From assembly GCF_932294415.1 (NCBI RefSeq), contig NC_065535.1, forward strand, positions 95,062,862 to 95,126,861: 64,000 nt of DNA, given 5' to 3'. Under the pieces are notes generated by a model that searched no databases, was not told the origin of the DNA, and was given only the letters and a program-made list of their open reading frames with translations. The translations under genes were made by a program, and so were the position numbers. Positions within the stretch are counted from its first letter, which is position 1, and every line of letters begins with the position of its first letter. Below are positions 24,574 through 56,047 of this stretch, one piece after another. The stretch comes from Quercus robur. Lineage: Eukaryota; Streptophyta; Magnoliopsida; Fagales; Fagaceae.

Positions 24574-24670
24574 GGCCAAAATGGGCAAATGCCCTTTTTT
24601 CGGAAATTAAACATCTTTGTGCCCTCATTCTGAAACTAAATAGGGAAATGCCCCTCTTTTGTAACTCGAT
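24574..24670 (+). repeat. Left terminal inverted repeat of the giant MULE
   Basis: About 97 bp, ending inside the first dyad (TAACTCGAT). By eye roughly 85% identical to the reverse complement of 56038-56134. The differences are mostly single bases plus small shifts in the T-run. Confidence 0.88.
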
Positions 24671-24918
24671 GATACTAAAATCGAGTTATATGAAATACTC
24701 GATACTTCAATAATCGAGTTATACACAGGTTTTTCCCGCACTGCTGGCATTTTTTGTTTTGAATCTCTACATAACTCGATTATTTAAAAATCGAGTTAGT
24801 TATACTGTTATAAACCCTGATTTCGTACTGTCTTTGTGTCAGGTGGAGTGTTTCAATGTAACTCGATTCCTGGAATATCGAGTTATAAAGTATACTTGAT
24901 ATCCGTAAAGTCGAGTTA
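24662..24918. promoter_or_regulatory. Dyad cluster C1: five TAACTCGAT-N9-ATCGAGTTA sites
   Basis: Five sites start at about 24662, 24695, 24772, 24859 and 24892. Each is exactly 9 bp arm, 9 bp spacer, 9 bp inverted arm. The spacers differ (gatactaaa, acttcaata, tatttaaaa, tcctggaat, atccgtaaa). The last site shows CTCGAT to CTTGAT and ATCGAG to GTCGAG changes. The cluster joins the left terminal repeat and lies about 520 bp upstream of the plus-strand gene at 25438. A role as binding sites for an element-encoded protein is inferred. Confidence 0.85.
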
Positions 24919-25437
24919 TTCTCTTATAATTTCTGCACACCTTCTCCCACTCAGTGTGCCTTGCTCTCTGCTGAACTGAGGACTTTCTGCTGAACTGAGT
25001 TGGAACTCCTCCACGGATCAACAGCAGCTTTCTTCAAACTCAATTGAAATTTGTATCACCTCAGGTAAAAAATTCACATCACAATTTTAGGGCAATGTTA
25101 TTTTCATTTGATATTGTACTAAATTTTGATTTTTTAGGTTGAATGAATGTGAAGTAAGTACATTGGTGTGATTTTGGTTATTTGTTGTAGTAAACGTTGG
25201 TGAGAAGAGAATGAAATAATTTCTTTACTATAGCAACATTTTGTATTGCACATAATCATCATTGGTCAGACATTTACAACAACATTTAGTGTTGAAGACA
25301 ATGTGTAGACATTACCAACAATGTCTATTGTTTATGAATGTCTTTGTTGTATACCATTCTATGCAGGATTACATTATTTAGCAACAGTTGATACACACTG
25401 TTAACTTGATCATTTGGTGTTATTGTATTCAGTGTCA

Positions 25438-25887
25438 ATGTCTGGTTTTGGCAACCCACAACTCTATAGGCCTCATGATGTGTTCACTGCTATGGGTCGT
25501 TGTTGGGTATTGGAAGATGAGTTCAGCTATCCAATCAATCCGAATTTGCGAAATAGTGCTTACGTTCACAATACCATGAGACAGGAGTGGGCTTGGTTAT
25601 TTCGTGAACAACAAATGTTTTATGATGAGTTGGTTGGTTTTAAGTTGCCAGTGCCTCGGCGACTCGCATCAGAAATGCCCAGAGACAGCATCGACGAACT
25701 TCGTAAAGCATTGAACCGCATAAGAGAAGAAAATAATCGAATGAAGATACGTCTTAATCGATATCGGACCCAAGTTGAGATTCGAGAGTCAGTGCAGGAA
25801 GGGTGGTACGAGCATGCACAGTTCATGCAATCACTTCTTGCTGATCCCATTTATCAGTCAGACGTGGAGATGTCAGATGAAGAGTAA
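25438..25887 (+). CDS. ENNxM-family small coiled-coil protein (copy 1)
   Basis: 149 aa; function not recognised. The start ATG at 25438 follows a plausible acceptor (tgtattcag), with a donor-like CAG|GTAAAA near 25064, so a 5'-UTR intron is likely. The earlier in-frame ATG at 25414 lies before that acceptor. The N-terminus (MSGFGNPQLYRP...) is unlike anything I know. The middle has RQEWAWLFREQQMFYDELVG, then VPRRLASEMPRDSIDEL and the hallmark RIREENNRMKIRLNRYR, a heptad-like, probably coiled-coil stretch. The C-terminus is acidic (SDVEMSDEE). Paralogues in this element are 26180-26560 and 29533-30147. It is the first gene inside the left terminal repeat, downstream of dyad cluster C1. It could be a DNA- or chromatin-binding accessory factor, but that is inference. 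Confidence 0.6.
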   Translation: MSGFGNPQLYRPHDVFTAMGRCWVLEDEFSYPINPNLRNSAYVHNTMRQEWAWLFREQQMFYDELVGFKLPVPRRLASEMPRDSIDELRKALNRIREENNRMKIRLNRYRTQVEIRESVQEGWYEHAQFMQSLLADPIYQSDVEMSDEE

Positions 25888-26179
25888 TCGTGTTGTGTCG
25901 TGGTGTAATTAGATTTTGTTGGAGAACTATTTTGCTTAACTATGTGTTATATGTATGGTTGCATTTGTACTATGTAAACCTTATTATTGATTATGAGAAG
26001 CATGCACGTTATTCGTAATGTAGATTATTCTCACATAAGTCATAAAAGTCAAATATTCTCACACATGATGTTTTTCAATAAGCACGTACGACATAACACA
26101 GAAAACATAAAATAACTTACACTAACATTATTAACTTAACCATAGACATAACACACACACACACACACCACAGTGGCAT

Positions 26180-26560
26180 TCATTCTGATAGGTAGTCCTC
26201 GTAGTTGAGGACATTGTTACGTTCTGCCGGAGTGAGTTGCCTGTTTGTTGCAACGGCTTGCTCCTTCGCCAATTGTAGCATATGATACCTGGACCTACGA
26301 AGTATCATAAGATTGTTCTCTTTTTTTATTTTCGTCACTGCACGCTCATATTGGTGCATGTTTTGTCGTGGCAGTGTGAGCGAGCTACGCTCGACAAGAG
26401 GCGCTCCGATTTGCAGGAGATCATTGTGCAGAGCGTTGGACTCGTTCACGCGAAAGTCCCACTCCTGTTGCAATCCGGCATAGTATTCCCTCTCGTCAGA
26501 ATCTCTTTGCGTTCTATAGTTATTTGGAAAACGAGGTAGCATCCAATTACGCATTGACAT
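26180..26560 (-). CDS. ENNxM-family small coiled-coil protein (copy 2)
   Basis: 126 aa, minus strand, convergent with copy 1 about 290 bp away. It has LQQEWDFRVNESNALHNDLL, then SLTLPRQNMHQYERAV and the family signature KIKKENNLMILRRSRYH. These align with RQEWAWLF..., MPRDSIDEL and RIREENNRMKIRLNRYR of copy 1. The C-terminus is acidic (NVLNYEDYLSE). Pairwise identity by eye is low (about 25-30%), so the duplication is old, yet all three copies retain open frames. That argues for selection within the element. Function unknown. Confidence 0.55.
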   Translation of the reverse strand: MSMRNWMLPRFPNNYRTQRDSDEREYYAGLQQEWDFRVNESNALHNDLLQIGAPLVERSSLTLPRQNMHQYERAVTKIKKENNLMILRRSRYHMLQLAKEQAVATNRQLTPAERNNVLNYEDYLSE

Positions 26561-26879
26561 TGGAAAATGTGACTTTAGATCGGTATGTGTAGAAGTTTTG
26601 CAAGGGTAGATGTATGTAAATGGGACTTCGGTATGTGTAGATGTTTTGCAAGGGTAGATGTAAATGGGACTTTATATAGGGGTTTTGCAAGGGCAAGTAT
26701 TCAGGTGGATGTGAGTATAAGTATTCACGTGAATAAAGATGATATGAGTTGACAGTATATTGTTCAGTGGCGTCTGTTGGTGCATGTGATTCGTTGAGGT
26801 AGCTGTCGAGTTACACTATAGCTTGTGCTACAGTAGCGGGCTGGTGATGTGTACTGCAAAAGAGGTTGCGTATTTATTC

Positions 26880-28790
26880 ACGTGAAGACTATTCAACATT
26901 GATGTGCTTCATCTGACATGATTTGACGAGACAATGTTGAGCTGTGTTAAATGTATCATAAACTTCTCAGGGATGCTATAGGTACATCCTTTAAAAATGC
27001 TGCATTGCAAAAGGATGCATAGCTGTGTATTGACGTGCGTGTAGGTGATATGACTGGATAGGGTTCAATAGTGCAAAGCTATTGAGCAGCACTACGAACA
27101 TCAATGTAGCAATAGGACCAATAACACTCGAAATTGATGCACAAAATTTTCTGCGTTGCTATGTGTATTGACGTGAGTGTGGATGGGTACTTCTGGTCAG
27201 GGTTCAACAATACTGAGCTATCCACCGTAGCTACAGTCATTGCTCCCTATGGTGGAATTTGGCAAGTGTGATTGAAGAAAGCTGATAACAACATTAGGTT
27301 TTGTAATGGTTGGCAGGATTTCGCTGAATACCATTCTATCTGTTATGGTTATTTTTTAGTCTTCAGATATGAAGGAAATTCAAGCTTCCATATTGTTATA
27401 TTTGATAAGACTGCCATTGAGATTCAATATCCACGTAGGAAGAATTGTAAATTGGAAGATCATCAGGTAAAAATATCAAAAACTTAGATGAAGATCATAC
27501 AAACATTTCTTCCTTAATGTACAAACCCATAAAACATGAAGTCAGAGAAAAGTTTGTTCTTAAAAAATTACAGATTATGTCCAGAGGAAGAGAGAGAGAG
27601 AGCAATCCAAGCAGCCAAAAAATTGAAGCCTAAAAATCCTTCTTTCATGGGTATCTCGTGGCCACATAATATGGTGAGCCTTTATACATAATGTGATTAT
27701 GATGTTCTCTTAAATATGGCTTGGAAACATATATGGGAAGCAAGTATATTATTGGGAAGCAATTTGTCACACATCAATGTCTTGTGCTATTACCCTCCAT
27801 CAAAACCTATTAAGCAATGAGATTCGGGGAAGGCTGGGTTGCATTTTCGAAAGACAATAATTTAGAAAAAGGAGATGTCACTGCCAATGAGGTGATCGAA
27901 AGGACTCCTGTTGTGATTAGTGTCTCAATATTTCACTTGGTTGACCATCAGAGTTTGGACAAGGATAACCTATTTAAAATTTAAACTAGTGATGTTTATG
28001 CTTATATTTAATTAGGGACTTTGATCAGTACTATGGTTTATTTCTCTGACCAGTTTGGTATGTCTTGTTCAAAACTATTCAGAATTCCTGTGCTTCATCT
28101 GACATGACTTGTTGAGACAGTACTGAGCTGTGTTCAATGTATCATAAACTTTTCAGCCATGCTCTGCATCCTTGAAAACGGTGCATTGCAAAAGAAGGCA
28201 TATCTGTGTATTGACTGGACAGGGTTGAACAGTGCGAAGCTGTTAAGCAGCACATGTAGCACTACGAACAACATCTGTGTACCAATGTTGGACAGCTCAC
28301 ACCCAAAATTGATGCATAGCCAATTCAGGGATGCTCTGCCTCTTCGAAAATGGTGCATTGCAAAGGGTTGCACATATGTGTATTCACGTGAGTGGGGATG
28401 GGTACGTGTGGTCAGGGTTCAATAGTTTCGAGATGTTGAGTATCACATGCAGAACTACATCAATCAAGTGTAGCAATGATGGACAGCTTACCCCCAAAAA
28501 TTTGCTTACACTTTTGAAGGGTCCTCTGCATCCTTGAAAATAGTGCATTGCAAAATGTTGCATATCTGTTTATTCACGTGAGCATGGATGATATGACTGG
28601 ACAGGGTTCATTACCGTCGAGTTGTTGAGCAGCACATGCAGAACTGCGAACATGACTTCGCCGAACAGTGCCGAGCTGTGTTAGCCTTTTCCAACCTCAC
28701 TTGCCAAATGCTAGTATTACGAGCAGTGAGTGTAGCAACAGTAGAGAGTTTTATCCCCCTGTTTCCCTACAAACTTTTCAGGGAGTCTTT
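26880..28790 (+). repeat. Diverged direct repeats of about 180-200 bp around the B3 remnant
   Basis: The motifs 'tgcattgcaaaag', 'tgtgtattcacgtgagtgtgg', 'gactggacagggttcaa' and 'gagcagcacatgcagaactacgaacat' recur in the same order near 26870-27250, 28080-28290, 28320-28500 and 28510-28740. Another partial copy lies near 30360-30560. The decayed B3 gene (27240-27984) sits between copies. The short frames here are not genes. Confidence 0.7.
27240..27984 (+). pseudogene. Decayed B3 (REM/VRN1-like) gene copy
   Basis: Exon-like pieces occur in order. First, GGIWQV-stop-LKKADNN then FCNGWQDFAEYHSICYGYFL, VFRYEGNSSFHIVIFDKTAI (end of a B3 domain), followed by a GTAAAA donor. Second, ERERAIQAAKKLKPKNPSF and MGISWPHNM, ending at GTGAGC. 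Third, FGEGWVAFSKDNNLEKGDV, from a damaged second B3 domain. A TGA interrupts the first piece, and parts of both domains are missing. It is a relative of, but not a simple duplicate of, the intact B3 gene at 36816-38670, and lies in the opposite orientation. Probably a captured host gene in decay. Confidence 0.75.
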
Positions 28791-28799
28791 GCAGGTAGA

Positions 28800-29532
28800 A
28801 AATGTAGTTACATTTTGTCAACATCAATGTAAAATTACATGAAGAAAACTATGCTTCCAAGTTTTACATCAATGGCTTCCGATCATCACAATTGCAATAT
28901 TAGGGAGCTTTCAAGCAATGCTACAACAAACCAATAACTTGAATGAAATATTTCAAAGGCTGATCAGGCTTTTAGGCCTTTACTCTATTTTTAAGCAAAC
29001 CAAATATCGTTGTGAGAGTGTGTTGGGTGAGCCATATGGATTTTCAGTGAGTGAGTGGTTAGTCTGGTTTGGACGAGTCTTTATGTAATGTATCTATATA
29101 AAGTAGGACACTATTACAACTAAGATACACAGATACGTGCATATTATATCGTGACTCAAAGAACTCATATAAAAGAATTATTCGAATTATTGAATCATAT
29201 GCGCGGTTGGTCTATGTGGTTTGGATCAGTTTGTATGTATTGAATCTATTAAATTTTCCTACAAGTAATGTGCAATAAATATAATTTGGAGGCATTTCAC
29301 TTCCTAAGGTTTTCCCTACATTACAAAGCAAAGGACATTGTTCGTCCATGACCCACATTACTTGAATGTAGCAACAAAGAACACGTATGAAAAAAATGAG
29401 AAAGTGATTTCACATAAACTTAGCCAAAAGTAATAAACAGTTAATCTTTAGAGTTGCAAAAGTTGAACATACATAATCATCATTTGTCACACATTAACAA
29501 TAACATCATGTATTGCACATAATGTGTAGACA
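28800..29532. other. Intergenic within the MULE
   Basis: No gene is supported. A block near 29470-29560 ('tattgcacataatgtgtagacattaacaacaacgtcta') also occurs at 25240-25330, just upstream of ENNxM copy 1. It links the surroundings of two paralogues. Confidence 0.5.
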
Positions 29533-30147
29533 TTAACAACAACGTCTAATGTTCGTAGGTAGAAATTTTTGGAAATCATCATTGCTTGAATCTGAGAAGT
29601 CTGAAATATCTGTTTCATCATCTAACGCTGTAATTTCATTAATAGACTTCATGGCTCGCTCTTGCGCCTTCCCCTTTAGATGCTTCCTAGCTTTTTGGAT
29701 TGCGTGAAAACGGTCTAGTCGCCTTTGCATTTGATTGTTCTCTTGTTCAAGACGAGCAAGTATGTTGGCAGGTTCATCTCTAGGTAACTCGGCAGAGCGT
29801 GCCTTAGGAACTCGTAACCCGTGCCATCGACAATACACCTCTAACTCACACCTCTTCTCGTATAGGGTTGACCATGGTGGTTCTGCTATAGTGAACTCTA
29901 TTGCGGTGGTATCTGTACTTAGTTTTGTAGGTTTGCCGACCATGATGTGTCCGACGCTTCCAAGACTCTCATACGTGTATATTGGCATATTAACGAAATC
30001 TCTCTTCTTTCCAACCCATTTTCCTCCATAGTGGTCTGTGTATGTATGTAGTTGTTGATCTGTTGGAACTTGTGATGATGCATTTGTTGAAGTAGGTCCA
30101 AACTTGTTTCGCATTGTACGATTTGATGTTGAGGCATTGCGACTCAT
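29533..30147 (-). CDS. ENNxM-family protein (copy 3, longest)
   Basis: 204 aa. The N-terminus is Ser/Thr/Asn-rich (MSRNASTSNRTMRNKFGP). It is followed by an unfamiliar middle with FVNMPIYTYESLG and AIEFTIAEPPWSTLYEKR. Then comes the family core: GLRVPKARSAELPRD, ILARLEQENNQMQRRLDRFH, and an acidic Ser/Asp-rich tail (DETDISDFSDSSNDDF). The extended N-terminus is absent from the two shorter paralogues. The core predicts a coiled coil, and the acidic tail is shared with copy 1. The role is unknown; an element-encoded regulator is possible. Confidence 0.58.
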   Translation of the reverse strand: MSRNASTSNRTMRNKFGPTSTNASSQVPTDQQLHTYTDHYGGKWVGKKRDFVNMPIYTYESLGSVGHIMVGKPTKLSTDTTAIEFTIAEPPWSTLYEKRCELEVYCRWHGLRVPKARSAELPRDEPANILARLEQENNQMQRRLDRFHAIQKARKHLKGKAQERAMKSINEITALDDETDISDFSDSSNDDFQKFLPTNIRRCC

Positions 30148-32128
30148 AGCTTAATCAATCTACGAAGTTAGCGGGGTAGAAAGTTAACATTATATCACTG
30201 GTGCATTTATAACCTCATTTCACGGTCCAGGCATTACAATTTCACTTATTAGGGCCTGTCATGTCAAACCCTTCAGGAAAAACACTATATGAACAAGATT
30301 TTAAATGTTCCTAATGTCACATCAAAGGTGGGCAGTAGTTGCAACAGTAGATGTAAATGAGACATTTGTGCATCCAATTTCACAATTTTGTATTCACGTG
30401 AGTGTGGGTGTGAAACAGTGTCGAATTGGGTATCCACATCGTGTAGAGCACCGAACATGACTTGACTAAGCAGCAGCGTCTGTTGGCACATGTGCTGCGA
30501 TTGAAGGAGTTTGATATGACTACAGTTGGTGCTACAGAAGCAGGCTGGTGACGTGTGTTTAGAGTTGGAACTTGGTCACCTTCAAACTTCGCTATATTAA
30601 TTGTGTTTTGTCTTTCACCAGCAAGTTCGCAATATTAATTTATTAATTATGTTTGGTCTTTCACAAAATAAATTATGAAGATCACAGTGTTTTCTGTGAT
30701 TTGGTCATTTTGAATGTCTGTAAACATGATGGTGTGTAAATATGACGGTGTTCATTATCTTTGGTCATTAAACATTTACAGGTTAAAAGCATCACTTTGG
30801 TCTCAGAACCATCACTCTTACAAATTACGTAGCGCCATAGGTCATGTACAAGTGTACTTTCTCTTGTAATCGTAGCCAATTGATGTGAGACTGCATTTGA
30901 GGGAATACCTACTTACTCGACTATTCGATCAAACATCGTGGTCAAAGACTTGTCGGTTTGAAGCGAGGCCCAATTTGGTCTGAATACCACATCTGTTATA
31001 CCGTAGATGTTGGTGGTGGCTTGAGCTCCTGGTTATATCTGTTTAATTGTGAACTTTACCTTTACAAAATCTTAAACATCATTAGTCATTGTCGTTGGTC
31101 ATTTTCAAGGATGGTAGTCAAAACGCTCTTCCCATAATTCGTGACTGTTGGTTAGAAGAGATTGCATATAGGTAAAACCATGTTCAACCCTGAAACTAAG
31201 CTCTCAAACAAACGCGTGCCATAATAATTTACAGGTTGAAAGCACCACTTTGCTCTTAGAACTTTGATGTTAGTGGCTTGAGGTCACTGTTATATCTGTT
31301 TAATCGTGGTTGGTCCTTCACAACATACTTAAACTTCACGATGTTTATTATCTTCAGCTCACTGTTATCTAATATACATGGGAAGAGCAAACCACTTCAG
31401 GTTTGGATTCCTCATATTTGATTAAAAAAAATCCGTTAGACCTAATGCTAGAGTGAATGAGGTCATGCCAAGTGTCGCTTTTATCTTTTTCGACGAGTCT
31501 GCACTGCAAGGTTTCATCAATAAATTTTGTAATGAAAATATGATGCATGAGGAATAGTCCAGGCGAGGATCAAATTCAGAATAATATAATTGCTGATTTA
31601 AGATCGACAAAAATATCCAATTAGTGGAAAATACATGTAAGCTCAGCAAAACCTCCAATAAAAATAGTTGCCTGAAGTCAAGATATAGCTTCAGCCATTG
31701 TTCCAAGGAAAATCTCCTAGGTGGTTCATCGTTAATATCAAAACCTGTAAATGAATTGTGCTTTCACAAAACCTTCCATTTGTATTAATAATTACTATAA
31801 TCTAAAAACACGTGAGCGTCGTACAGAATTATGAAATAAATGTTATTTACACACAGACTTGGATCTACTTGATATTATATAGAATCACATAATAACATAA
31901 AAAATTCTTAGACCATTACATCCATTTCAATAATACTAATGATAGTAACGATGGGCATGAAACTAACCATCATATTAATATATCAAATTACTTTCAACGG
32001 ATACCATGTTCTTCAAATTGCCACTAAAATAAAAAAATATAGAACTGTCATACAATTCTCCAAATATGTTATAGCAACCACGAACTGAAAATCGTCCCCC
32101 CCTTGGGTACAATACCCAATGGGAATCA
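30148..32128. other. Intergenic within the MULE
   Basis: Contains a further copy of the 26.9-28.7 kb repeat (about 30360-30560) and a weak internal repeat ('acaggttaaaagcatcactttggtct' near 30778 against 'acaggttgaaagcaccactttgctct' near 31231). The 94-codon minus frame at 31422-31706 has no recognisable motif and is left as unsupported. Confidence 0.45.
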
Positions 32129-33262
32129 TCAAGAGTCAGATGGTGTAGAAGGTGGAACAGGACGTCTATAGTGAGCTAAGTCCGCTCGCATAGCTCCAAC
32201 CTCGGCAAGAAGACCATGTAGAAGCTGACCATGGGCTGCCTGAGTCGTCATAATGGTCTCCATCATAGCATGAAGAGAGGGAGGAAGAGGGCATGTATGC
32301 GCTGCATCAACAGTGTCAACATCTATCTCATCATCACCATCCTCGGCAACAACAGATGTGGGATCCCCATGCATGTCCTCATCTTGAACATCTCCAGTAG
32401 TAGACCGTACTCGTGGTCTGTTGGATGGACCAACACTGAGGTCGACAACCTTCTTTTGGGCAGTTCGCTGTTTCAGAAATTTGGCTCCTATAGGGGCTTG
32501 GATGTGAACCAACTCGTGGGAAGGAAAGTTCTTTAATCCTAAATATTTGAGGACCCTATGGATGAGAACTGGGAAAAACAAAGCATGCCTCTTATACTTG
32601 CTCCTACGCACCTTGACAATGGTTTCGATGAAAAGGGAAGGAAAACAAATGGAACTATTGGTGACAAGGGCGTAAAGCAAGATACACCTGTCTACAGGGA
32701 TTGTATGGATATGAGAGATAGGGAAAATATTGTGACAAGCTATCCTAAAGAAGATATAATTAAGCTCAGTCAACTCACTTGAGCTAATACTTCGGCCAGA
32801 ATCCCGAATGTTTGATCGTCCACAAAGAACATCCATAACATCATCAATACGAGGAGACATAGAGTTTGGATAAGTAGGTGTACAAATTATAGGTACATCA
32901 AGGGCTTTAGATACGTGCTCCCTAGTTATTGTAAACGGTACACCACGTATGGACGATGCCACCTTGTGACCACCAAGATCCTCATGCACCGATAGATTCG
33001 AATAGAATTCTCTAATCAAGTTAGCTGGAGGGGGTTGTATGTTTGTACATAGGGACAGCCAATGCCTAGACTGTAGATTCTCACGAACAAAAGGATGCAG
33101 CTCCTGTAAATTGATTTGCCTTTCTCCCCAAATACGCCTACGCTTAATCAAGGTTTCAAAGGTTTGCTCATTTTCTGGCGTGAGGAACCTTAATTGATCA
33201 AACACCACTTCAGGTTCGGATGCAGCTTTGCATTTTCCCCTCTTAGTCCTCTTCGGACCCAT
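32129..33262 (-). CDS. Putative plant transposon protein domain (Transposase_32-like)
   Basis: 377 aa in a single frame. The basic N-terminus (MGPKRTKRGKCK) could be a nuclear localisation signal. Residues about 50-240 resemble the 'putative plant transposon protein' domain: LQSRHWLSLC, then LIREFYSNLS, SSIRGVPFTITREHVSKALD, and the helical block ELTELNYIFFRIACHNIFP with FFPVLIHRVLKYLGL. Residues 285-330 are acidic and low-complexity. The C-terminus (LHAMMETIMTTQAAHGQLLH) predicts a coiled coil. In other plants this domain is found in transposon- or retrotransposon-derived proteins of unknown biochemical role. Dyad cluster C2 (34059-34657) lies about 0.8 kb upstream. The frame is uninterrupted. 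Confidence 0.72.
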   Translation of the reverse strand: MGPKRTKRGKCKAASEPEVVFDQLRFLTPENEQTFETLIKRRRIWGERQINLQELHPFVRENLQSRHWLSLCTNIQPPPANLIREFYSNLSVHEDLGGHKVASSIRGVPFTITREHVSKALDVPIICTPTYPNSMSPRIDDVMDVLCGRSNIRDSGRSISSSELTELNYIFFRIACHNIFPISHIHTIPVDRCILLYALVTNSSICFPSLFIETIVKVRRSKYKRHALFFPVLIHRVLKYLGLKNFPSHELVHIQAPIGAKFLKQRTAQKKVVDLSVGPSNRPRVRSTTGDVQDEDMHGDPTSVVAEDGDDEIDVDTVDAAHTCPLPPSLHAMMETIMTTQAAHGQLLHGLLAEVGAMRADLAHYRRPVPPSTPSDS

Positions 33263-34058
33263 AACTAATCGATGGTCAGTAGTGCAAACACGATCAGCTC
33301 ACACAAAAACAGAACCAAAATGAAGTTTGAAGCAGAGAACAAAAATTGAAGAGTAACCAGCTACCATGTGTAGAAAATCATGCACACAATATACTGTCTA
33401 GAGCAGTTTACAACAACACAATGAAAACCAAATATTCTTATTCACGGGTTGTTTAGTTGGTGCAATAATTGTAATGCATTTTGGTCCGAGTCAATAATTT
33501 GAAGTTAGAGACCTAGAGTATATAACAGAAGTCTTATCATATAGGAAACATACAAGTGGATTTAGGAACTGACATATATCATACCATCGTAGCTACATGT
33601 AGTAAGTTTCACCAGCTTCTACAAAAAACAGAAAATAAATTGCACAATGTACAGTTCAGACATACAACCAGCATATATCTATACCACACACATATGGAGC
33701 CACTGGCAAGTTCATTTTGTGGAAGGAAGACAACCTATGACATAGGCAACCTTACTAACAACAATGCATTTGACTAGGCAAACACCCAATTTCATCACAA
33801 TCTTCATAGACATAGACATAGAAGTGTGAAGCATCAAAATGCAAAATTTGAGAATAATGCACCAACAATGTGTAATTTCAAAGACAGCAACCGTTAAAAG
33901 AGTCTTACTATGTAAAATCCTCGACGAATTTGCGCGGGAAATTGTGGGTTCTAGCCGGATGAAGCGAGAGCAATCGAAGATGTAATTTCGGACAGCTGCA
34001 AGTTCTGTAGAACTGGGGAAGAGTTAATAAAAATGGGTAATAGATTGTAATGTCCATA

Positions 34059-34657
34059 TAACTCGATATTACTATAATCGAGTTACATGCAATCAAATTT
34101 TCAGCACAAGGGCTTGCACATAAACCGACTGTCCGTAAATCGAGTTATGTGTAGCACAAATAACAAGAATCCAGTTAACGGTGGAACGGCTTTCCCATAA
34201 CTCGATGTTGCAGAAAACGAGTTAATTTCAAATAACTCGATTATACAGAACTCGAGTTATTTTTATGGGCCCCCAGGTATTTGGACTGGTCCAGATGCGG
34301 TCCAAGACGAATCGAAGTTTAAAGGTAGGCCTGCGACAATACTCGATTCTACTTGAATCGAGTTCTGTGCAGTGGACACTCACAAGAAATCAAATTCCTC
34401 GAGATTTGGAAAATCGAGTTACATTGTACACATGCACCCACCCAGCCCATATATTTGGACTGGTCCAGATGCAGTCCAAGAGGAATCCAACTGTATATGG
34501 CTACCTCGCACAAAACCGAACAAATAACATAGTACTCTGTTATTTGCAGTAGAATATCTCAAGAATGCAATTTCTGTGTGTAATGGCTTGCATATAAATG
34601 GCGACATCATAAAGCGAGTTATTTGCAGAGTTACTCAATTTTGTAGAACTTGAGTTA
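34059..34657. promoter_or_regulatory. Dyad cluster C2: about eight 9-9-9 sites
   Basis: Sites include TAACTCGAT-attactata-ATCGAGTTA at the left edge, then variants TAACTCGAT-gttgcagaa-AACGAGTTA, TAACTCGAT-tatacagaa-CTCGAGTTA and ATACTCGAT-tctacttga-ATCGAGTTC. The right edge is TTACTCAAT-tttgtagaa-CTTGAGTTA. Arm spacing is always 9 bp even where the arms have decayed. Two copies of a second palindromic repeat (TTGGACTG...CAGTCCAA) are interspersed. Upstream of the minus-strand gene 32129-33262. Confidence 0.8.
34281..34479. repeat. Second palindromic repeat, two copies (more at 39129 and 39283)
   Basis: Copies at 34281-34305, 34455-34479, 39129-39153 and 39283-39307. Each is a 25-bp sequence with inverted arms TTGGACTG and CAGTCCAA around a 9-base centre (gtccagatg or close). 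It is usually preceded by 'cccag..at' and followed by 'gaggaatc'. All four lie within dyad clusters C2 and C3. Copy 1 has one arm mismatch (cggtccaa). Confidence 0.85.
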
Positions 34658-35359: not shown

Positions 35360-35458
35360 GTACATATTTCACCAGTATTTTGTGTTATTCATTTGTATAT
35401 TAGCAAAGATTTTTCAGGAAACAATGATATTTTTCTTTGAGCAACGATTCATCAAGTT

Positions 35459-46064: not shown

Positions 46065-46099
46065 GAATGCTTGCACTTCCGTCAAAAGTGCAAGCATTC
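46065..46099. repeat. Perfect 14-bp-arm hairpin
   Basis: GAATGCTTGCACTT and its exact reverse complement AAGTGCAAGCATTC are separated by seven bases (ccgtcaa). It stands alone within non-coding element DNA. No miRNA-length duplex or terminator T-run accompanies it; function unknown. Confidence 0.8.
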
Positions 46100-46406
46100 C
46101 TTTCCCACTAAATACTCCACAAGAGACAAACTCGGTATCATCATGTCTAAATTTTTTAGCAATCAAACCATGTAAAGCACTAAACATATGAGGATTACCC
46201 ATGTCAACAGTTTGGTCAATTAATGCCAACTTATACATCAGAAGTCTTATTAAATGCTTCTTCCACTTCTAACTTATAGGAAGCTCAAAGAAAATATGTT
46301 TGATGATCACCAAACAGACATGTAAGAAGAAAATTTTACAGCATCGTTAGTTTGCAAAATCTACAATTATTTTCATTCCCACATGATTTCAACACATTGC
46401 AGATAA

Positions 46407-46410
<4 letters not shown>

Positions 46411-46449
<39 letters not shown>
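46411..46449. repeat. (AT)n microsatellite
   Basis: About 19 AT units. The 63-codon frame across it on the minus strand is an artefact. Confidence 0.9.
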
Positions 46450-46454
<5 letters not shown>

Positions 46455-46483
46455 CAATGAAGGCAAATAAATGGAAAAAATAC

Positions 46484-46812
46484 CTGTATGCCCAACAAAA
46501 GTATGTGTACATTTGCTTCCTCTCCAAAGTTTTAAAGTTGTATCACTTGAACCTAAAATCGTGGTAGCATAAAAATGAACCCCATAAGTTCATAGTGAAA
46601 GACATTCGTAGTTGATAATGCATTCCAATCTGATGTAACCAATTCCAACTACCAACAAAATCTAAAACAATATCTAGCAGAACAGTCATCTACTGAATCA
46701 TATTATACCTGTAACAAGCTCGCCTGAAGGCAGCTTTATGAGTGCTTGGATTGCTGCCTTATGAGCCTCCCAGGATTCTGAAGGTTGGCCACTTCTCCAA
46801 CGTCTTAATGTG
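46484..46812 (-). pseudogene. Two captured exons resembling a PLAA/DOA1-like WD40 protein
   Basis: Exon A (46812-46709) encodes TLRRWRSGQPSESWEAHKAA then IQALIKLPSGELVT. Exon B (46552-46484) continues in phase with GSSDTTLKLWRGSKCTHTFV and GHT. Both have intact acceptor and donor sites (GTATAA and GTATTT donors). The joined reading is a WD40 repeat pair (GSSDTTLKLW) of the type in plant phospholipase-A2-activating-protein/DOA1 homologues, which act with ubiquitin and CDC48. The rest of the protein is absent, so this is a captured two-exon fragment with its intron, acquired as genomic DNA. Confidence 0.72.
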
Positions 46813-48261
46813 CTGTGGTGAAGGAGACATTAGATACTAACCGAAAATTATTGAGAAAAATGCATATACCTTTGTAAGCATAGATAATAATTCAAACCCA
46901 AAAAACGGCAATACACAAACAATAAAAGTAACATTCAAACAGTATGCAAATTTTTCATTAATGCCTCCATCATTTCATTAAAGCAAATGATGGACAAGAT
47001 TTGATTCATTGGCCAATGACACACACAACATATATATATATATATACTGAAAATCATAAAATAAGAAGGCTAATTGATGAAAAAATCAATAATCAATTAA
47101 ATGTACCCAATCATTGGGTTCCCAATTTGCTACCAAAATGAAAAGGTAATATATACAATGATAAATAACAATTACAAACCCCAAGAAGCAAAAGGAACAA
47201 AACATGCACACATAACTAAGATTTTTGCCGTTTTCAGCTTTGGGTAAGTTATATTGTGAGCTGCTCTAGAACAATGCTAGAAAAAAATATAAATTCTATT
47301 CTCCAAAGTTCCTACTAACGAACTTGTAATCAAATGTACACAGATCTAATCATTCTAGAGAGGAGGGGATTTAAAGAAGATTAAAATTAATAAAATGGGA
47401 AGCAGGATGTACCAATCTAGGAATTGTAGGGAAGGCGAATCAGAAAATTAGGAGAGAGACACATACCTAGCCAAGCATTGTAGAGACTCGGATAAATGAT
47501 TTGCTACAAAGGAGTTGGTTTTGCCATTGATCCGCATAAACTTCGTCATCAAACTCTTTTACAGAAAGTATCAAATTACTTCTTCTTGCTTATCAACAAT
47601 ACCACACATTTGTTTCTCACAAAACTAACAAAAATAAAAAAACAAATTACTCTCTTACAACCCACTTTACTGTAGCTAACAACATACAAAAACACAAGAA
47701 AGTTTGGCTTCAAATGAATACCAATCCAGACATTTGTCAAATTGCAATCAAAACTCCAAGTGCAGAAAAACTTCCTAATACATCAATAAATACAATACGC
47801 CTTATGGGTTTTCTCCAAAATATCAATTTCTTGACAACAAACACATTGACAGCCAGTATTCTCCCCAAGCAATGATCCAGAAATAGATGCACAGCCACCA
47901 AGATTCTCCCCAATTAGTAGAACATTTTGCATGCTTATTCCAGTCACCTATACACATGAAGAATAAGCACACAAGGACAATCCAGCTCAATGGCCTTTTC
48001 GTGTCCACCATTGCAGTTAGGTCTAAAAAAAAAAATACGACTTTAGAAGAAAAGTGAAACGTAACTATGCAGTCACCTATAGGCAGGAAGTATAAGCATA
48101 CACTAAGGCATTTAATGATCTTTTCGTTTCCGCCCATATGCCCTGACAGGTCTAATCTTACCTGTTTCATCAGACACAACAGCATAATTAAATTAACATA
48201 ATCAATCAAATGCACAGTACAAGTAGCTCAAGAAGATGGGAAGTGTAGACGAAGTACATAC
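46813..48261. other. Intergenic or 3' part of the PMD gene; short internal repeat
   Basis: No separate gene is identified. Two related blocks of about 85 bp (near 47940-48030 and 48068-48160) share 'cacctata...aggaagtataagca...gatcttttcg'. They may be duplicated 3'-terminal exons of the plant-mobile-domain gene: a 'ctgtcag' acceptor occurs in the right one and a decayed version in the left one. A possible minus-strand exon at about 47470-47570 (FDDEVYADQWQNQLL) is not recognised. Confidence 0.4.
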
Positions 48262-51200
48262 CATCACCGGTCCCGCAATCGGGAGCATGCGCACGCGGGC
48301 GTCGCGATCTCCGCAAAGCCTCCACCGGCTCAATGTCCTCAGCCGGTATCTGCTCAATCTGTACAGCCTCTCCGTGGGCGGTTTGAGATGGAGCTGACAT
48401 GGTGGGGTCCACTTGCACTAGAGGTGGGGTGGGCATGCCTGGTGTGGGGACAAATATGCATCCACCATCATGGGCAGATCCACTGAAAACTGGGGGCGAC
48501 ATACGAGGAGGGCCCTCAAAGTCCGTGCTAGCACCATGGGATGTAGTGTGGGCTGGAACAGTGCCCTGATGATCGACGCTATGGGATGGCCCAGCACCAT
48601 CGCCAGGCATGCATCGCGGTGTCCTGCCGTCGTCATCAGACAGTACCCAATCAGTGCCAAGCCATGCCTCTTCTACACCCTCCTCATTCCCTTCCTCGTA
48701 GATGGGAGCCGACTCGGTCGTACGGCTGCGACCAGCTTGACCACCTCCACGATGTCCACCCCCACGAGACCCACCACGTTGCCTGCCACGAACTGGGGCC
48801 TGTCTATCAATGTCAACTGCTTCTGCAAGCGCATTCGCCAATTTAAGTCGGCCTAGCTCCTCCACAAGCTCTAGTGTAAATGTAAGGTCAGTGTGCATGT
48901 CAGAACCTTCATCGCACCTCGGTATAGACCTAATCATCGTCCGAACCTACAAAACAAGGGCGTCATAAAAGCAAGAACGCAAGTATGATGCAAAACTTGG
49001 ATAAATCTGTTCCAAAATCAAAAGAAAAAGTAGCAAACATAGCTAATGAAATCCTTATATTACTTATAATTATGAAGCATCTTTAAAAAGACAGTGTATA
49101 AAAATAGGGGTTGGCCCCCCCTGTGCAAGAATTTATAGTTCCAACCCAACACTCAAGAGGTTGTATGTTTCCTGTTATGTTTATCGCTACGCAATCTAAA
49201 CATTGAGATAATACTTCTAAAAAACACGTATAGTTGGTTGTACATAAGTTCAATCTTAGCATAAGTGAAAATATCAGAATTTCACTTCTGTATCTAGGCT
49301 TCACGAGATTTACAACTCCATTAATATCACATTGCAATCAGGACACATATTTTGAAGTTATTATTTCCTAACGTACACGCCCAAATCAAATGAATTGAAA
49401 ATATCAAACGCAAGCTTCAAGTTTCAATTAAGGGAAGTACCAAAAACTTAGAACATATATCATACTTGAATCTAGTATAAATGCACATCTCCTTGCTGCA
49501 TACTTGCAAGATTTTAAATGACCTTTAAGCTGTTGGGAATTGCATTCTACCAACAGTTTAGTAAGGGACTTCCCAATCCTAGAGGTAATATCTATCAAGG
49601 AATATGTAATACATTAATCAGTCCTGGAGGAAAGGCTATCTAAACTATCATGAAATGCGAATTTATCACTACTACACAGAGTTGCACCGTCCATTTTAAA
49701 GTACAAGCCAACCAAAAACAAAAAAAAATAAAATAAAATTAAAATAAAATACAATAAAACCCAACCCAACCTACCCTTTTTAAAAGTTGAATGTAATTAT
49801 ATGAACAAAGGTGTGGTCATCATTAGTCATTGCCCATTAACCATTCCTCATGCAAACAAATTGGATCAAGACAAATTCAGTTTGTTATGAACAACTTAAA
49901 TCATGCAGTATTTTGACTTTAAAACATAATGACATGTCATGCAGTATTTTTTCACTTTAAAACAAAATGACAGAGAAACTTATAGAGATGTAACAACAAT
50001 AACTATTGTGGACTTCAAAATATGCATGATAAATCTGCTGAGGATATTTAATCCAACAATGGTTTCATCCATAAAATAGGAATTGTTGCCTCACCATGAG
50101 TTCCCAATACGCAGACTCTGGTGTTATGTACCGCCTTGTGTGGCGATTGTACCACATCATGTACTCAACGAGATACGTATCATCATCGTCTAGGAGATCG
50201 GACCCGCGAACTACATTCACTCGGTTGGCCCATTGCCGAATAAAGGGATCATGTTCTACCTCCCAGTTCTTCTCCCATTTACCCTGAAGGGATATCTTGT
50301 GAAGGGTAGTCGACGTATCCACGACACTTGGAACTGGTTGCTTCATCCCAAACTGACGGAGGACTCGCTCAGGATGATGCCACTCCACTATCCAAAAGAA
50401 AATCAACGGCACCTCGGCCCTCCAAATATGCTGCCCAGCAGTGCAATACGCAGGTAGGGAGCCTAGCGTATGCGTGTACGGCTCCCATACAATCTGCATA
50501 AGTAGATTATGTTTGTGATAGTGAGACATCATACTAATTTAACATTATGTTTGTGATATGTAATATGCAAAGCATGGAATTTCTAGCTTCTAGTCGTACA
50601 CAAAATCTTCAGGGATTATTGGGCAGAAACTAAAAGAACAACAAAATTGACCTGCAAAAAATATTAAAAGATCTAGGTTGTTCATGTCCACCATTTTCAG
50701 CCCCATGTTCATATGCTGGACAGGGTTCAAAGCTAACTGACACCATCAAATACTAGGGTTTTCAATCTGAACCAAACTTAGAGGAGGGTACTACAGCATC
50801 CTTATGGCTGTAAGATGAATCCAAGTTGATGATTTCGCAAAATCTTTTTATCGTAATAGAAATATTGTGCTACATTAATTGCATTAGTCATTAACAATGT
50901 TTCAATGAATGAGAACAAAATGACTATTATAAGGTCTACTGAAGACATTGCATTTCAAGTACCACTTTATATTGCAAGAAATGGAAGCTATGTAAATTAT
51001 TACATGGTATAATCCTCATCAAATACTGTTATTATATTTCTATGTAAATATATATTTCTTATAAATTTTAGTGTTGGAAATTACGTAAGCCTTTTAGTTA
51101 TCTCAAACTAATCATGTCAATGTCTAAAATTACATTCCTCTTGAAGAATATGGTGATCAGCATATTTTGCACGCTTCTAAAATTATATGAATAAAGTACT

Positions 51201-54200
51201 CGTTAATAATCCATAGCTTTTAATAATTTTAGGACTATTAAGGCAGCTAAAGTGGGGACAACTTAAGGAGTTGCATGCTGCAATTAAATTGTGCTCTCCA
51301 ACTTTGGTGCAAGGAGCACGAACTAACTTTTCATTTAGGTCAACAACAAGAGGTAATGTGTCAAGCGTCTTTATGTTTTCTCATATATCACTGATTAACA
51401 ATTATTTGTTTCTTTAAACTTAGGCCATTGTTTTCCAAGAAGACAATCGAGGCTGTGCATATTCAAAATATACCACTTGAATACGTAAATCGAAGTCAAA
51501 CAGTATTCTACTAGACTGTAAAAATATAACCTTCAATTCAGCAAAGGTAATTTATAACGTACAATGTAACAATGTTTTTTGCATCACAATAACAATTTTT
51601 GTAATCCTGGATACCCCTATGTTAGAAGAAGAAATACTAAATTGTCTACTTATTAGGCAGAGCAATAACTATGGTTTTAAGCTCATAACATTTTATTAAT
51701 TAATTACAAGTGATTTCACAAGCTTAATTACAAACCGTACAAGCTTAAATTACAAACCACCTGCAGCACCAGTGGCACCAATGAATTGTAAAGAGCTTAG
51801 ATTCACATTGACTACCTATGAAAACACCATCAACTAGAACATCCCAAACAGATGTTTAGATAACATAAAAGTTTATATTAACCTTAGATGGTCACTTAAT
51901 ACTAAATATTGCTATGTTCTGTCACAGGGGTAGTGAAATGCATAAACTCCAAACATTAGTAAGTTTTTGAAGGCAAAGCAACAATTGAGACTATCTTCGG
52001 TGCTCACTCTGGCATCCTAAACAACCCCAAATCTCACAAAGGGTTTCACCTATACCCTGGACTCTCGAGTTCCTACTGGGAGGGCACTAATGGCTTTGTA
52101 TTTTGGAAATTTCACAGTGTGGACCCAAGCAATGACAACCATCCAGCATTGGACAAGGACAAGCTATGGCAATGGCTTAGCCTATGGTCACTCTATGACA
52201 TTCAAGTCAGAGTAACTCCATCCTTTAGTTTGCTTAATTTCAAATTTCAATGAAAGCCAGAGAAGTGATCATGTGTTTTACGGGCCAATGATCAATAATG
52301 TCATCATTCCCTCTGTTTCTGTACTTAGGCCAAAAATGCAAACTTGGGTTATATTTTTGCTCTCATGTCATGATTACACAATAATTAGATAAAATTTTCG
52401 TAGTTTAACATTTGCAGCTTTCCCAACGTTCTAAATTTAAAGAATTTTATCATTTTATGAGATTTAACAGCCAACTATATTACAACAGTGAAGAGCAGCT
52501 CTAACTCAGCAAATTTAATTCAACGAAAATCTGGAATATAATTGTGGTAATATCTAAGTCAACCACCAAAACTATAGCGAATCCAGAAGGTGTGAAATAT
52601 TAATAAGCTTCAACAGTTCTAAAAAAAATTTCTATTTTAAAGCTTTAATATTGAAGTATAACAACTATCAAAGATTCAAACTCTCTCTAAAAGAATTATG
52701 AGCACAAGTCTGGGCTAACCTGTTGAGCAAGACTCCAAAACGCATGTAAAGAAGCAGAAAGTGCAAAAACAACGAAGAAGACAGTGAAGCAGAATTCACA
52801 CAAGGATTAGGGAAAGAAAAAAATTTGGACCATTTCTCGATTTATGCGTGTCATCCTTGCGCAGGGGCCATGCGTTTTGAAAATATCATTTGTATTCTAA
52901 TATGCCTTGATTCCCTTGTTCTGAAAAGACCCATATTTGTCAAGTTTATAGTTAGAAATTTGTTGTTTAGAATTTAATTGACCATGGTGGTTCTGCGTTT
53001 ACAATCATTCGCCTTATATAAAGTCTTAAGAAATATTGTTTTGAAAATTTTTAGTTCATTTTCATAGCAGGCTAAAAGTTCTATTTTCTCATGTTAAGTA
53101 GGTTGAAACGGTGTATAATAACATAATTAGAAAATGAACACAAACTTTTGATTCAGTTAGTAGCTGGAAAGAATTTAAAGATGTCATCGTCAGTTTCGAA
53201 GATGCATCATTAAAATCAAATGAATTACTTGAGCACACAAATACAACCAAAGACAAATCTGATCATCTTTGGTATACTATTAGGTAAATTCATTTCTCAT
53301 TGAATTATAACCAATTACATAATCCAATATGTGCGTCTTCTCTTCATTGCATCAGCTTAATGACATTTGTAACAATTGGTGGAGTTTTTGTTTTTTGGTT
53401 GCAACACAAGTTTGAACTCACTGCCTTGCACTAAACGAAGACTTCATGCTCAATGTTTTGCGCATGTTGCACATGCTTCAAACATCTTGGAAAAGGGACA
53501 ATTTATTCTGTGTTTTTTTTTTTTTCCGTGTAAATCACAAACGTTTCCGTACATAATGAAGAATATAGCCAAATTCTACTTTATATATATATGACTAAAT
53601 TTATATATAACCCATTGATTTAACCCAACTTAACCTGAGTCATGTTAGTTGGGTTGCATTGGAAAAAACCCTTCAATCCAACCCAATTTGGAAAAAACCC
53701 TTTGATTTAGCATTCAAGAATTTTTTACTTTTGTTTTACTTTATGTAAGGACGAGCAAGTATTCATGCAGGTGCTACAAATGGAAGTTCTAATGTGAAGT
53801 ACTTCACGATGGACATTCCAATTGAGTTAAATGATGGGATGGAAATCCAAGTACCAAACAAAATGATTGGATGGTATTATGAAATCAACTCATTCCTACA
53901 ACAATCCAAGAATTCAAAATAATATAAAATTGAGGGAAACGAAAATAAAAGCATGTGCGGTGCATTTGAGGAAAACGTGCTGGGCCCGTAGTTATAAGAA
54001 TTGAGGGAAACGTGGTCATAAGAATTCAAACTAAATTAACCGAATACCTGCTCGGCCCGTACTGTAGCCAGTGACGCCCGGTACGCAGCAAGGACGTGTG
54101 TGGCATGCTCTGCGGTGCATTTTGGCCCGCTCCACCTACCAAACATGAGATGTCGACAAATGCTCATTACTGAACCTTACATTTAACAAACTTTGCTTTT

Positions 54201-55262
54201 ATATTTCACATCCATATACTAAGCATTGATAAGTTTCTTTCGTTTGTTAGTTTGGCATATTTTTAATTATATGAAAGAGACAAATAACGAGAACTCAATG
54301 AACGTACCTAATGGCAAGGGGCCCTGAGTGCACTGGCGGTAGAGGCGGCCTCACAACAGGGCATAATTGTGGGAACCTTGAATAGGCCCATAGCTGCACC
54401 AACAAGAGTGCTCCTCCAATCTGCATCGCATCCTTCTTCGATGCACCACAAAGTTGCCTATACAGCCAGGCCAATGCTGCACTACCCCAGCTATACCGTC
54501 TCGCATTGCTGACTGGGTTGAGCAATTGCAGAGGCAGCAGTGAGACCCGGTCCGCAGACCTGTCCATGAACAAGAGGGCCCCCATCCGTACAAGTAGGTG
54601 GTAGCGGGCATATTGCTGCACGACTTCGTCAGCAGCGTCCACAACTAAGGGAGCGGCAAACTGTGCATCAAGCCAGGTGTATCTTATCCTCGCCCCAGCA
54701 AGGGTAGACTTGTTTGAGTTTGGTATCGGGGGTGGAGGTTTATGGCCCAACAACTGTTCGCACAGCTCACTCCATTTGTAGTCTGTCTTCCCAGTGACAG
54801 GCAACCCATCCACCGGAAGCCCCAGCATCACCTCCATATCTTGCAAGGTGATACCCATTTCTCCATGGGGTAAGTGGAATGTGTGCGTCTCCGGACGCCA
54901 CCGCTCAACCAACGCCGTGATCAAGGCGTGGTCGACCTCCATATCAGGAACCTTGAATAAACCAGTCAACCCTGCTGCATCTATGTGTTGCATGATACGT
55001 GGATCTAACCCACCCTGTGGCAATACACATTTACGGCGTCGAACCTTTATCATGCCAGGCGCCTCCTGCACACGGACGAGTATTCTGTTAGGAGATTAAA
55101 CACGAGGTAATTATAAAACAAACATGTATTAATAATACTACTACATACCTCGTCAGCGGCGCACCTCCAAAGTGGACTTGACCGATGATTCGGCTGCTGG
55201 GCCAACTGGGTATCCACATCGGGTCCAGGCCGCACTCTATCTAGTGCCTGCATATCTGACAT
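48262..55262 (-). CDS. Plant mobile domain (MAIN/MAIL-like, 'PP7 long form'-like) protein, five or more exons
   Basis: Exons 55262-55149, 55065-54308, 54135-54048, 50493-50095 and 48946-48262 join in frame with GT/AG junctions (about 681 aa). A last small exon is unresolved (candidate acceptor near 48146). Exon 2 holds the core plant mobile domain: [77 protein letters not shown] and [20 protein letters not shown]. Exons 3-4 continue it ([63 protein letters not shown]). Exon 5 has an RGG-like stretch ([20 protein letters not shown]), then an acidic/Pro-rich tail and [14 protein letters not shown] proteins in plants (MAIN, MAIL1) are nuclear and affect transposon silencing and genome stability. 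Transposon-borne PMD genes are known. Dyad cluster C5 is about 650 bp upstream. Confidence 0.82.
51233..51352 (+). pseudogene. Captured exon resembling plant beta-galactosidase
   Basis: Between acceptor 'taataattttag' and donor GTAATG the plus strand reads [20 protein letters not shown] then [15 protein letters not shown]. It resembles the plant glycosyl hydrolase 35 stretch with KWGHL-x-LH-x-AIKLCEPALV. One exon only, lying antisense in the PMD intron. A captured fragment. Confidence 0.7.
51970..52251 (+). other. Unidentified open stretch, possible captured exon
   Basis: An open frame without ATG of about 93 codons reads [19 protein letters not shown], then [32 protein letters not shown] and [17 protein letters not shown], ending TGA. 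Codon use and the aromatic-rich composition look coding, but I do not recognise the family. Antisense to the PMD gene. Confidence 0.4.
53753..53923 (+). other. Unidentified open stretch, possible captured terminal exon
   Basis: After an acceptor-like 'ttatgtaag' the plus strand reads [18 protein letters not shown] then [20 protein letters not shown] and [15 protein letters not shown], ending in a stop. There is no ATG start and no recognised family. Confidence 0.35.
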
Positions 55263-55907
55263 GGCAGCAAATACATTGTTAGCAATTTTCTAACAAGTAA
55301 ACCACATTTAATATAAAATAAAAGCATAGATTCAGTAAGACATTATATTTTGAGCACAAGATTTTCAACATCACTTCTTAAATAAATAAGAACTTGCCAT
55401 AAAAAAAATTATTTCAGAACTATTTAAATCACTTCTTAAAGCTTCGGATAATTATTAATTAACTATTTATGAAAATATAAGTTATAACACCACTCGATTT
55501 GCCAAAACCCCTCATCAAAACCCCAAGCACATTTAAACTCATTAATGAGAAAATCATCATTGCAGCATATAAAAGACAACAAAATTCTCATCTTCATTAG
55601 TAAATTTACTACTTCCTTAAGTTTCAACAAAATAATCAAAATCCCACACAAAACGCAACCTAACATTAACCAACGTCAGAAAATATTTCAGAGGGAGAGG
55701 ACCGTACCTGTAATCAGCGGCGGCGGGAACCAACGACGACTGATGGAGACTCGAGGAAGAGTGGGGAAGCCTGATCGCAGAGCGAGAGAGACAGAGTGTG
55801 GAGAGAGAGTGATGGCAGAGAGCGAGGGAAAGAGAGTGTACAGAGAGAGTGAGTGACTGAATAGCGTTGTGAGACGTTAGGGTCCTATTGATTCAAACCG
55901 CTGAACA

Positions 55908-56047
55908 TAACTCGATTTCCAGTTTCCCGAGTTATGGCCGTCTACACAAACATTTTTTTATTCGGGAAAATTCGAAAGGTCAGACTAACTCGACTATAAT
56001 AATATCGAGTTATTCATTAAAACTCGATTTCTATATTGTCGAGTTAC
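55908..56047. promoter_or_regulatory. Dyad cluster C5: three 9-9-9 sites
   Basis: TAACTCGAT-ttccagttt-CCCGAGTTA, TAACTCGAC-tataataat-ATCGAGTTA and AAACTCGAT-ttctatatt-GTCGAGTTA. The last overlaps the inner edge of the right terminal repeat. Upstream of the plant-mobile-domain gene on the minus strand. A purine-rich GAGAGA tract (55775-55855) lies between the cluster and the gene and may be leader or promoter sequence. Confidence 0.85.

Follow-up and report, generated by a model that had tools for sequence, protein, structure and literature searches.

Large transposons in plants have to keep many genes active in the face of DNA methylation, and how they do so has been little tested beyond a few model elements. 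In Arabidopsis, VANDAL elements are known for their VANC anti-silencing proteins and the associated motifs YAGTATTAY and AGTTGTCC/AGTTGTAC (PMC5735166, PMC10398659), and in the CACTA element Spm/En, the element-encoded DNA-binding protein TnpA is linked to demethylation and to repeated end motifs that are needed in cis (PMC2613891, PMC10398659). Here we describe a 64,000-nucleotide stretch of Quercus robur DNA (C2:95062862-95126861; the whole stretch is called the window) that contains a giant Mutator-like element (MULE) carrying clusters of dyads, each a pair of 9-bp arms around a 9-bp spacer. These dyads could reveal the means by which copies of a giant transposon are marked and turned on by the transposon itself, and we propose that they may be recognition sites for a protein that the element encodes, with the transposase as the leading candidate.

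Dyads of fixed spacing

We count 30 good TAACTCGAT-N9-ATCGAGTTA dyads in the window, grouped into five clusters (5, 7, 11, 4, and 3 dyads) that all lie within the giant MULE. This bears out an earlier sequence-only reading that had reported about 30 dyads of 9-9-9 geometry in five clusters. The set was defined at up to four mismatches, with one weak isolated site at 26787 dropped (31 if it is kept). The looser pattern WAACTCGNT-N9-ANCGAGTTA, with up to three mismatches, matched the window 62 times, counting both strands of a nearly palindromic pattern, compared to a mean of 0.59 in 100 shuffles (maximum, 3), and outside 24574-56134 it matched once, at 10119 with three mismatches, which is chance level. 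When up to five mismatches in the 18 arm letters were allowed on the plus strand, 33 sites were found at spacer 9, all inside the element, and 1 to 17 sites at each of the other spacers from 0 to 24.

Within these sites, the half-site consensus is TAACTCGAT, with a nearly invariant CTCG core. The spacers are rich in A and T; their third letter is a pyrimidine in 29 of 30 cases, and AA mostly precedes the right arm. Mean pairwise identity is 0.82 in the arms, which were the selection criterion, compared to 0.39 in the spacers and 0.31 to 0.34 in the 9-bp flanks, in line with the earlier description of conserved arms around differing spacers. That description also had the right arm better kept than the left, which is true overall (20 versus 34 mismatches across the 30 sites) and reversed in cluster 5 (3 versus 2); the asymmetry of the site is modest (907.0 bits, compared to a null mean of 888.6, a standard deviation of 7.5, and a maximum of 904.4 among 60).

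Genome-wide counts, which cover the 785.7-Mb assembly, agree with this picture. Exact arms separated by nine letters occur at 360 sites, where the reversed-pattern control gives 0 and window base composition predicts 0.03, while exact arms with spacers of 0 to 8 occur at 4 sites (reversed control, 1) and with spacers of 10 to 30 at 7 (reversed control, 4). In five sister copies of the element, 167 sites with up to three mismatches have spacer 9, none has a spacer of 2 to 8 or 10 to 12, and 2 to 7 are found at each of spacers 0, 1, 13, 20, 21, and 24. The sequence-only reading had named two outcomes that would refute it, a similar frequency in background DNA and a variable spacer among family members; neither was found, and the claim that the 9-bp spacer never varies stands for this window and is about 97% true across the genome. 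The exact dyad occurs 0 times in a viral contig collection and once, a background level, in a prokaryote genome contig collection; viral scans seeded with proteins found nothing.

Since dyads are inverted repeats by definition, one possibility is that they form hairpins, in RNA or extruded DNA, with a 9-bp stem and a 9-nt loop. Thirteen one-sided changes are compatible with wobble pairing, but the arms barely covary: 35 one-sided breaks stand against 2 compensated pairs, with 1 double break. This makes the hairpin model disfavored, and we consider it extremely improbable.

A recently spread family and a second arm class

The element has the features of the MULE superfamily: terminal inverted repeats (TIRs; 120 bp, 84%), a target site duplication (TSD) within the 9- to 11-bp range, and a transposase domain with a SWIM zinc finger (PF10551, 1.5e-19; PF03108, 1.3e-10; PF04434, 1.4e-07). 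Five further copies (A to E) match its ends, and perfect 9- to 10-bp TSDs flank six of six copies, the window copy included. Copies A, B, and C are 98.8 to 99.7% identical to the window element in their main blocks; copy D is 96.5 to 98.8% identical, falls to 91% in the tandem-array block, and is without 35458-36261; copy E is 99.2 to 99.4% identical and internally deleted from about 31101 to 46212. The transposase query returned at least 53 scored genome matches, a lower bound because 52 of 1719 first-look candidates were scored. Twenty-two of them, the window's own included, are full-length (1-881), stop-free, and 97 to 100% identical, and a second clade comprises nine matches at 67 to 68% identity, four of them stop-free. 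So many near-identical intact copies indicate that the family spread recently. Among copies, in a comparison that excludes PMDb and B3 exon 1, changes are too few to estimate the ratio of nonsynonymous to synonymous rates, except perhaps for the transposase (20 synonymous and 16 nonsynonymous changes, about 0.22). The closest named proteins to those of the window come from oaks; the transposase is 95% identical to a Quercus lobata protein in a cluster of 158 members.

The sequence-only reading had placed the dyads only inside the giant element, which is correct for the window and not for the genome, where sister families and small nonautonomous MULEs have them as well. From about 50 listed of the 360 exact sites, we chose 13 further loci that looked unlike the copies in the window's family (L005 coincides with L026, and the two were counted once). 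All 13 match giant-element sequence beyond the dyad, and 12 have further dyads; the other, L038, has a single dyad flanked by TIR matches. Some are ends-only elements of about 370 to 470 bp that carry dyads (L026 and L034; L027 and L036 look alike), with direct repeats, read by eye, of CACATACATG at L026 and ACAATTAAT at L034. End dyads are kept in these small elements and in the deleted copy E. The presence of dyads in ends-only elements argues for a cis signal for a factor supplied in trans.

Larger relatives carry them too. Sister element F33 has both a PF20167 gene (73% amino acid identity) and a plant mobile domain (PMD) gene (59 to 71%); six dyads with 0 to 3 mismatches adjoin its window-like 5' block, at a distance of about 8 kb from where PF20167 coding begins. 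Four weak dyads (3 to 4 mismatches) lie past the PMD gene. No B3 gene and no transposase were found within the 22 kb read. The clade of 68% transposases includes a copy (C5:26500015) in which five dyads with 1 to 5 mismatches lie between RH1N and the transposase start, arranged as in cluster 4 of the window, and in which blastn similarity to the window element is limited to RH1N, with none outside it.

Dyad variants with both arms altered were seen at L029, and the symmetrically altered form GAACTCGAG-N9-CTCGAGTTC has 679 exact genome sites, compared to 0 for its control. Variant dyads accompany a TIR-like end, GGCCAAAATGG (by eye), at L041, and they lie at both ends of a 6.5-kb stretch at L045 (C1:16494501-16501000) that holds no transposase match and is possibly a Pack-MULE. 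In 18 kb of element F43 (L043 and L044), clusters of variant dyads lie on either side of a MULE transposase that is 34% identical to the window's, with its domains present and its frame broken. The 18 kb gave no match at 1e-4 to B3, PMD, PF20167, ENNxM, or RH1N and no open reading frame (ORF) of at least 120 amino acids besides the transposase and ORFs overlapping it. When neighboring dyads lying up to 130 bp apart are pooled from the window element and loci L026 to L046 (either arm class, up to four mismatches), 42 of 102 pairs have start-to-start distances of 31 to 36 bp.

Transposons often use host signals, and the dyads stand upstream of genes, so they could be sites where the host's own transcription factor or chromatin protein binds, which the MULE would use to express its genes. 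Against this, 13 of 13 exact-dyad loci show MULE-like sequence alongside, a second arm class with the same geometry is unexpected from one conserved host factor, and dyads are retained in ends-only elements. We regard a host factor as unlikely.

Cluster evolution, cluster placement, and the candidate reader

Sister copies A to E hold 9 to 53 dyads each inside the elements (53 in C and 9 in E). Cluster 3 accounts for 11 dyads in the window and for 17, 21, 33, and 19 in copies A, B, C, and D, having grown mainly by extra 154-bp units with two dyads each. Across the 25 distinct sequences among 31 such units, diversity rises from 0.048 in arms through 0.122 in the gap separating the two dyads and 0.150 in the rest to 0.286 in spacers; spacers are more diverse than the rest (P = 0.02) and arms less so (P = 9e-5). 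This is the least biased test of arm conservation. Between the window and L030, changes number 4/90 in arms, 18/45 in spacers, and 39/269 in other noncoding DNA; for L031, they number 3/90, 15/45, and 32/271; and for L028, the rates are 10%, 33%, and 23%. Spacers changed more than other noncoding DNA at L030 (P = 2e-4) and L031 (P = 1e-3), with P = 0.21 at L028; when L028, L030, and L031 were compared with one another, none of the three pairings gave a significant difference. Among 17 TIRs, fetched via a dyad at the same locus, mean identity is 0.894 in arms, 0.750 in the TIR, and 0.588 in spacers.

If the dyads were functionless debris of passive tandem duplication, growth of cluster 3 as a tandem array would be expected, and for dyads beyond that array the way in which loci were found confounds arm conservation. 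Within the array, however, arms are kept and both spacers and the rest vary; elsewhere, dyads share arms and not spacers or flanks, and the 9-bp spacing holds genome-wide. Passive debris is thus very unlikely.

None of the 30 dyad centers falls in coding sequence, across 8,604 bp of coding spans. A cluster lies within 1.5 kb upstream of six of the eight genes, compared to a random mean of 2.35 (P = 0.0025; the 1.5-kb threshold was set after distances were seen). Because dyads occur at internal promoters, their reader would also touch gene control. In the arms, 56 of 60 CpGs are retained, and the observed/expected CpG ratio is 0.96 to 2.29 in clusters, compared to 0.62 for the element and 0.36 for its flanks. 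Part of this excess is inherent, since CG belongs to the arm sequence. CpG retention appears compatible with selection or with low methylation.

With moderate confidence, we interpret the dyads as recognition sites of an element-encoded dimer that mark ends and promoters, with the transposase as reader or main user. Each dyad would dock a symmetric dimer of a MULE-encoded protein, the 9-bp spacer keeping its two half-sites 18 bp apart; neighboring dyads are often similarly spaced. A dimer would be expected to leave a symmetric site of this kind, rigidly spaced and with free spacer letters. The sites lie just inside both TIRs and in noncoding DNA upstream of most element genes, and we propose that the transposase, through its MuDR-type DNA-binding domain, is that protein or its main user. 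At the ends, bound transposase would assemble for transposition; at promoters, it would mark element genes and keep them accessible and unmethylated, so that the 32-kb element might be switched on as one unit. The sequences themselves show the sites, their geometry and placement, the growth of the array, the conservation of arms inside it, and a second arm class; from these we infer protein binding, the dimer, the identity of the protein, and its anti-silencing or activating role. The sequence-only reading had likewise proposed a dimeric reader used in a VANC-like way; fixed spacing, the arms of the array, little covariation, placement, and retention in nonautonomous elements are in its favor, and binding is putative. 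It had named four candidate readers. The transposase is the leading one because no other gene was found together with both arm classes, the second class being represented by one element, F43; in that one element, ENNxM, B3, and PMD were undetected.

Several observations weigh against this interpretation. F43 is the sole transposase-bearing element of the variant class that was read, it has no TIR that we found, and ORFs of 45 to 74 amino acids beside its transposase lay outside the search, which an intron-split gene could also escape. Unequal-arm variants occur, such as CATCTCGAG with CTCGAGTTC, and therefore two arm classes are not the whole picture. Arm conservation across families is inflated because the loci were found via exact dyads; at the two nonexact dyads per locus, changes number 4/36 in arms versus 39/269 in noncoding DNA for L030 and 2/36 versus 32/271 for L031, which suggests that on such dyads the arms are kept no better than other noncoding DNA. 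Two of the eight genes, ENNb and ENNc, are without an upstream cluster, and 22 of the 30 dyads belong to internal clusters, which exceeds what a transposase needs for finding ends. Finally, VANDAL and CACTA arrays are read by a separate protein (PMC5735166, PMC2613891).

A separate VANC-like reader, the B3 or PF20167 protein, is a serious rival to the transposase. It is quite possible that a separate regulator of the element (the two-B3, PF20167, or ENNxM protein) reads the dyads as an activator or anti-silencer and that the transposase does not. VANC (VANDALs) and TnpA (Spm) are precedents, and B3 domains bind DNA. The largest cluster, which is also the one most able to expand, lies at the start of the B3 gene, as autoregulation predicts; the Quercus suber gene model P0086 is a fusion that runs from transposase through B3 to the PF20167 C terminus. 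In F43, however, which has variant dyads, these genes all went undetected, the dyads of the small elements compared sit in TIRs, where transposase must act, and the structure model of ENNc is poor (pLDDT 52.4), with a coiled-coil-like helix.

A broader form of the transposase interpretation can be offered tentatively, and we think it doubtful. Oak MULEs may use a diversifying paired-site code, with a 9-9-9 frame, an AACTCGA core, and TAACTCGAT or GAACTCGAG arms symmetric by clade, in which transposases act as reader, activator, and anti-silencer and hypervariable spacers deny shared identity of small interfering RNA (siRNA) length. With no such shared identity, siRNAs from one site could hardly silence others; a 24-nt identity is common to 1 of 435 pairs of window dyads taken with 12-bp flanks. 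If true, the array would be bound by one protein and yet be a poor target for RNA-directed DNA methylation. The tandem array of copy C, which repeats near-identical units, counts against siRNA evasion.

The element's genes and comparison with known systems

Coordinates are collected below. The 29536-30147 ORF has 242 homologues; among the best 120 of these, none carries a Pfam family, one is named (Lithocarpus), and most come from short contigs. By eye, this ORF and those at 25441-25884 and 26183-26671 have a common E-N-N-x-M stretch. A decayed-looking second B3 remnant lies on the opposite strand near the left end (27212-27463 and 27832-27933, +), and the transposase leader seems, by eye, to be duplicated (42981-43160 and 44001-44170). 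An RNase H-like (RVT_3) ORF at 35503-36216 (-) is present in copies A to C and absent from D along with 35458-36261; it may be a fragment of a retrotransposon that inserted at a later time. A second dyad, TTGGACTG-N9-CAGTCCAA, is interspersed with the main dyads in clusters 2 and 3, with four matches (shuffle mean, 0.35); its spacer, GTCCAGANN, is far less variable and is 10 bp in a few tandem units. Right of the element are large minisatellite arrays at 56489-58712 and 62402-63868 (92- to 93-bp and 75- to 79-bp units). Quercus suber proteins P0007, P0008, P0070, P0085, P0086, and P0090 match parts of the window MULE transposase under record names such as VRN1-like factor, SRP receptor, ribosomal protein, ABC transporter, and GDSL lipase; they are probably transposon genes fused into, or misread as, host genes.

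Table 1. Features of the giant MULE, in window positions
Feature	Position	Strand	Details
Giant MULE	24574..56134	not assigned	31,561 bp; sister copies align to both ends
TSD TGTTAATGAG	24564-24573 and 56135-56144		flanks giant MULE
Left TIR	24578..24697	+	84% complementary to right TIR; holds outermost dyad
Dyad cluster 1	24662..24918		5 dyads (24662, 24695, 24772, 24859, 24892); left end, upstream of ORF ENNa
ENNxM-like-looking ORFs	25441-25884 and 26183-26671	+ and -	
ENNxM protein	29536..30147	-	204 aa, no confident domain
PF20167 gene	32132..33262	-	putative plant transposon protein
Dyad cluster 2	34059..34657		7 dyads (starts 34059, 34121, 34198, 34233, 34339, 34395, 34631; weaker one 34595); upstream of PF20167 gene
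Second dyad TTGGACTG-N9-CAGTCCAA	34281-34305, 34455-34479, 39129-39153, 39283-39307		
Two-B3-domain gene	36825..38671	-	exons ~38570-38671, 37538-37909, 37333-37464, 36825-37097, predicted from homologues
Dyad cluster 3	38761..39473		11 dyads; starts ~90 bp upstream of B3 start codon
154-bp tandem unit in cluster 3	39015..39316		two dyads per unit; unit number differs between copies
MULE transposase (DBD_Tnp_Mut, MULE, SWIM)	40226..42847	-	open frame, 874 aa from ATG
Dyad cluster 4	44209..44376		4 dyads; between divergent transposase and RH1N genes
RH1N	44478..44909	+	small protein with RNase H1 N-terminal (Cauli_VI) domain
PMD gene	54298..55095 (first part), 50068-50538 (second part)	-	
Dyad cluster 5	55908..56046		3 dyads (55908, 55986, 56020); right end, upstream of PMD gene
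Right TIR	56011..56130	-	holds outermost dyad

With its hundreds of natural sites, fixed in geometry and of two arm types, this recently amplified 32-kb family makes the reader protein, the dimer spacing, and any effect on methylation directly testable. The dyad is also a simple genome-wide signature by which such MULEs, ends-only derivatives included, can be found and classed, and the system might also yield a compact, sequence-specific tool for epigenome work. A literature search on giant MULEs with PMD or B3 genes, oak MULEs, and the arm sequences found no title or abstract start describing these dyads, with most subscription journals and bioRxiv outside its coverage.

MURA binds MuDR TIRs, and MuDR is not known to have arrays of fixed-spacing dyads at internal promoters. 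The oak element may resemble maize MuDR/MURA in having a MULE transposase that works on TIRs and reduces their methylation (PMC10398659), a likeness that is putative here. PMD genes are known companions of several plant MULE groups (PMC6446971). Like Spm/En with its TnpA, the oak element has repeated motifs near its ends and, putatively, encodes a protein that binds DNA. Spm, however, has CACTA termini and a 3-bp TSD, whereas the oak element has GGCCAAAATGGG ends and a 9- to 10-bp TSD, and Spm motifs are subterminal, whereas oak dyads lie at internal promoters too.

VANDAL elements are the closest parallel in use of motifs. Both are MULEs with short motifs in noncoding DNA, both have motif-bearing tandem repeats that vary in number by expansion and contraction, and in both the motifs of related families are altered. 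The VANC domains DUF1985 and DUF287 were absent from Pfam scans of 18 window ORFs (15 in the element), which intron-split genes could escape, and from six element ORFs rescanned at E up to 10. Compared by eye, the half-site consensus is neither YAGTATTAY nor AGTTGTMC, the VANC motifs being uncounted in the window. VANC motifs are described as single motifs of 8 to 9 bases (PMC5735166), whereas the oak sites are 27-bp dyads with a fixed 9-bp spacer, and words beginning with palindrom, inverted, or dimer occur 0 times in the main text of that source. Our best reading by analogy is that oak dyads work like VANC motifs, with a different motif, a different geometry, and different proteins.

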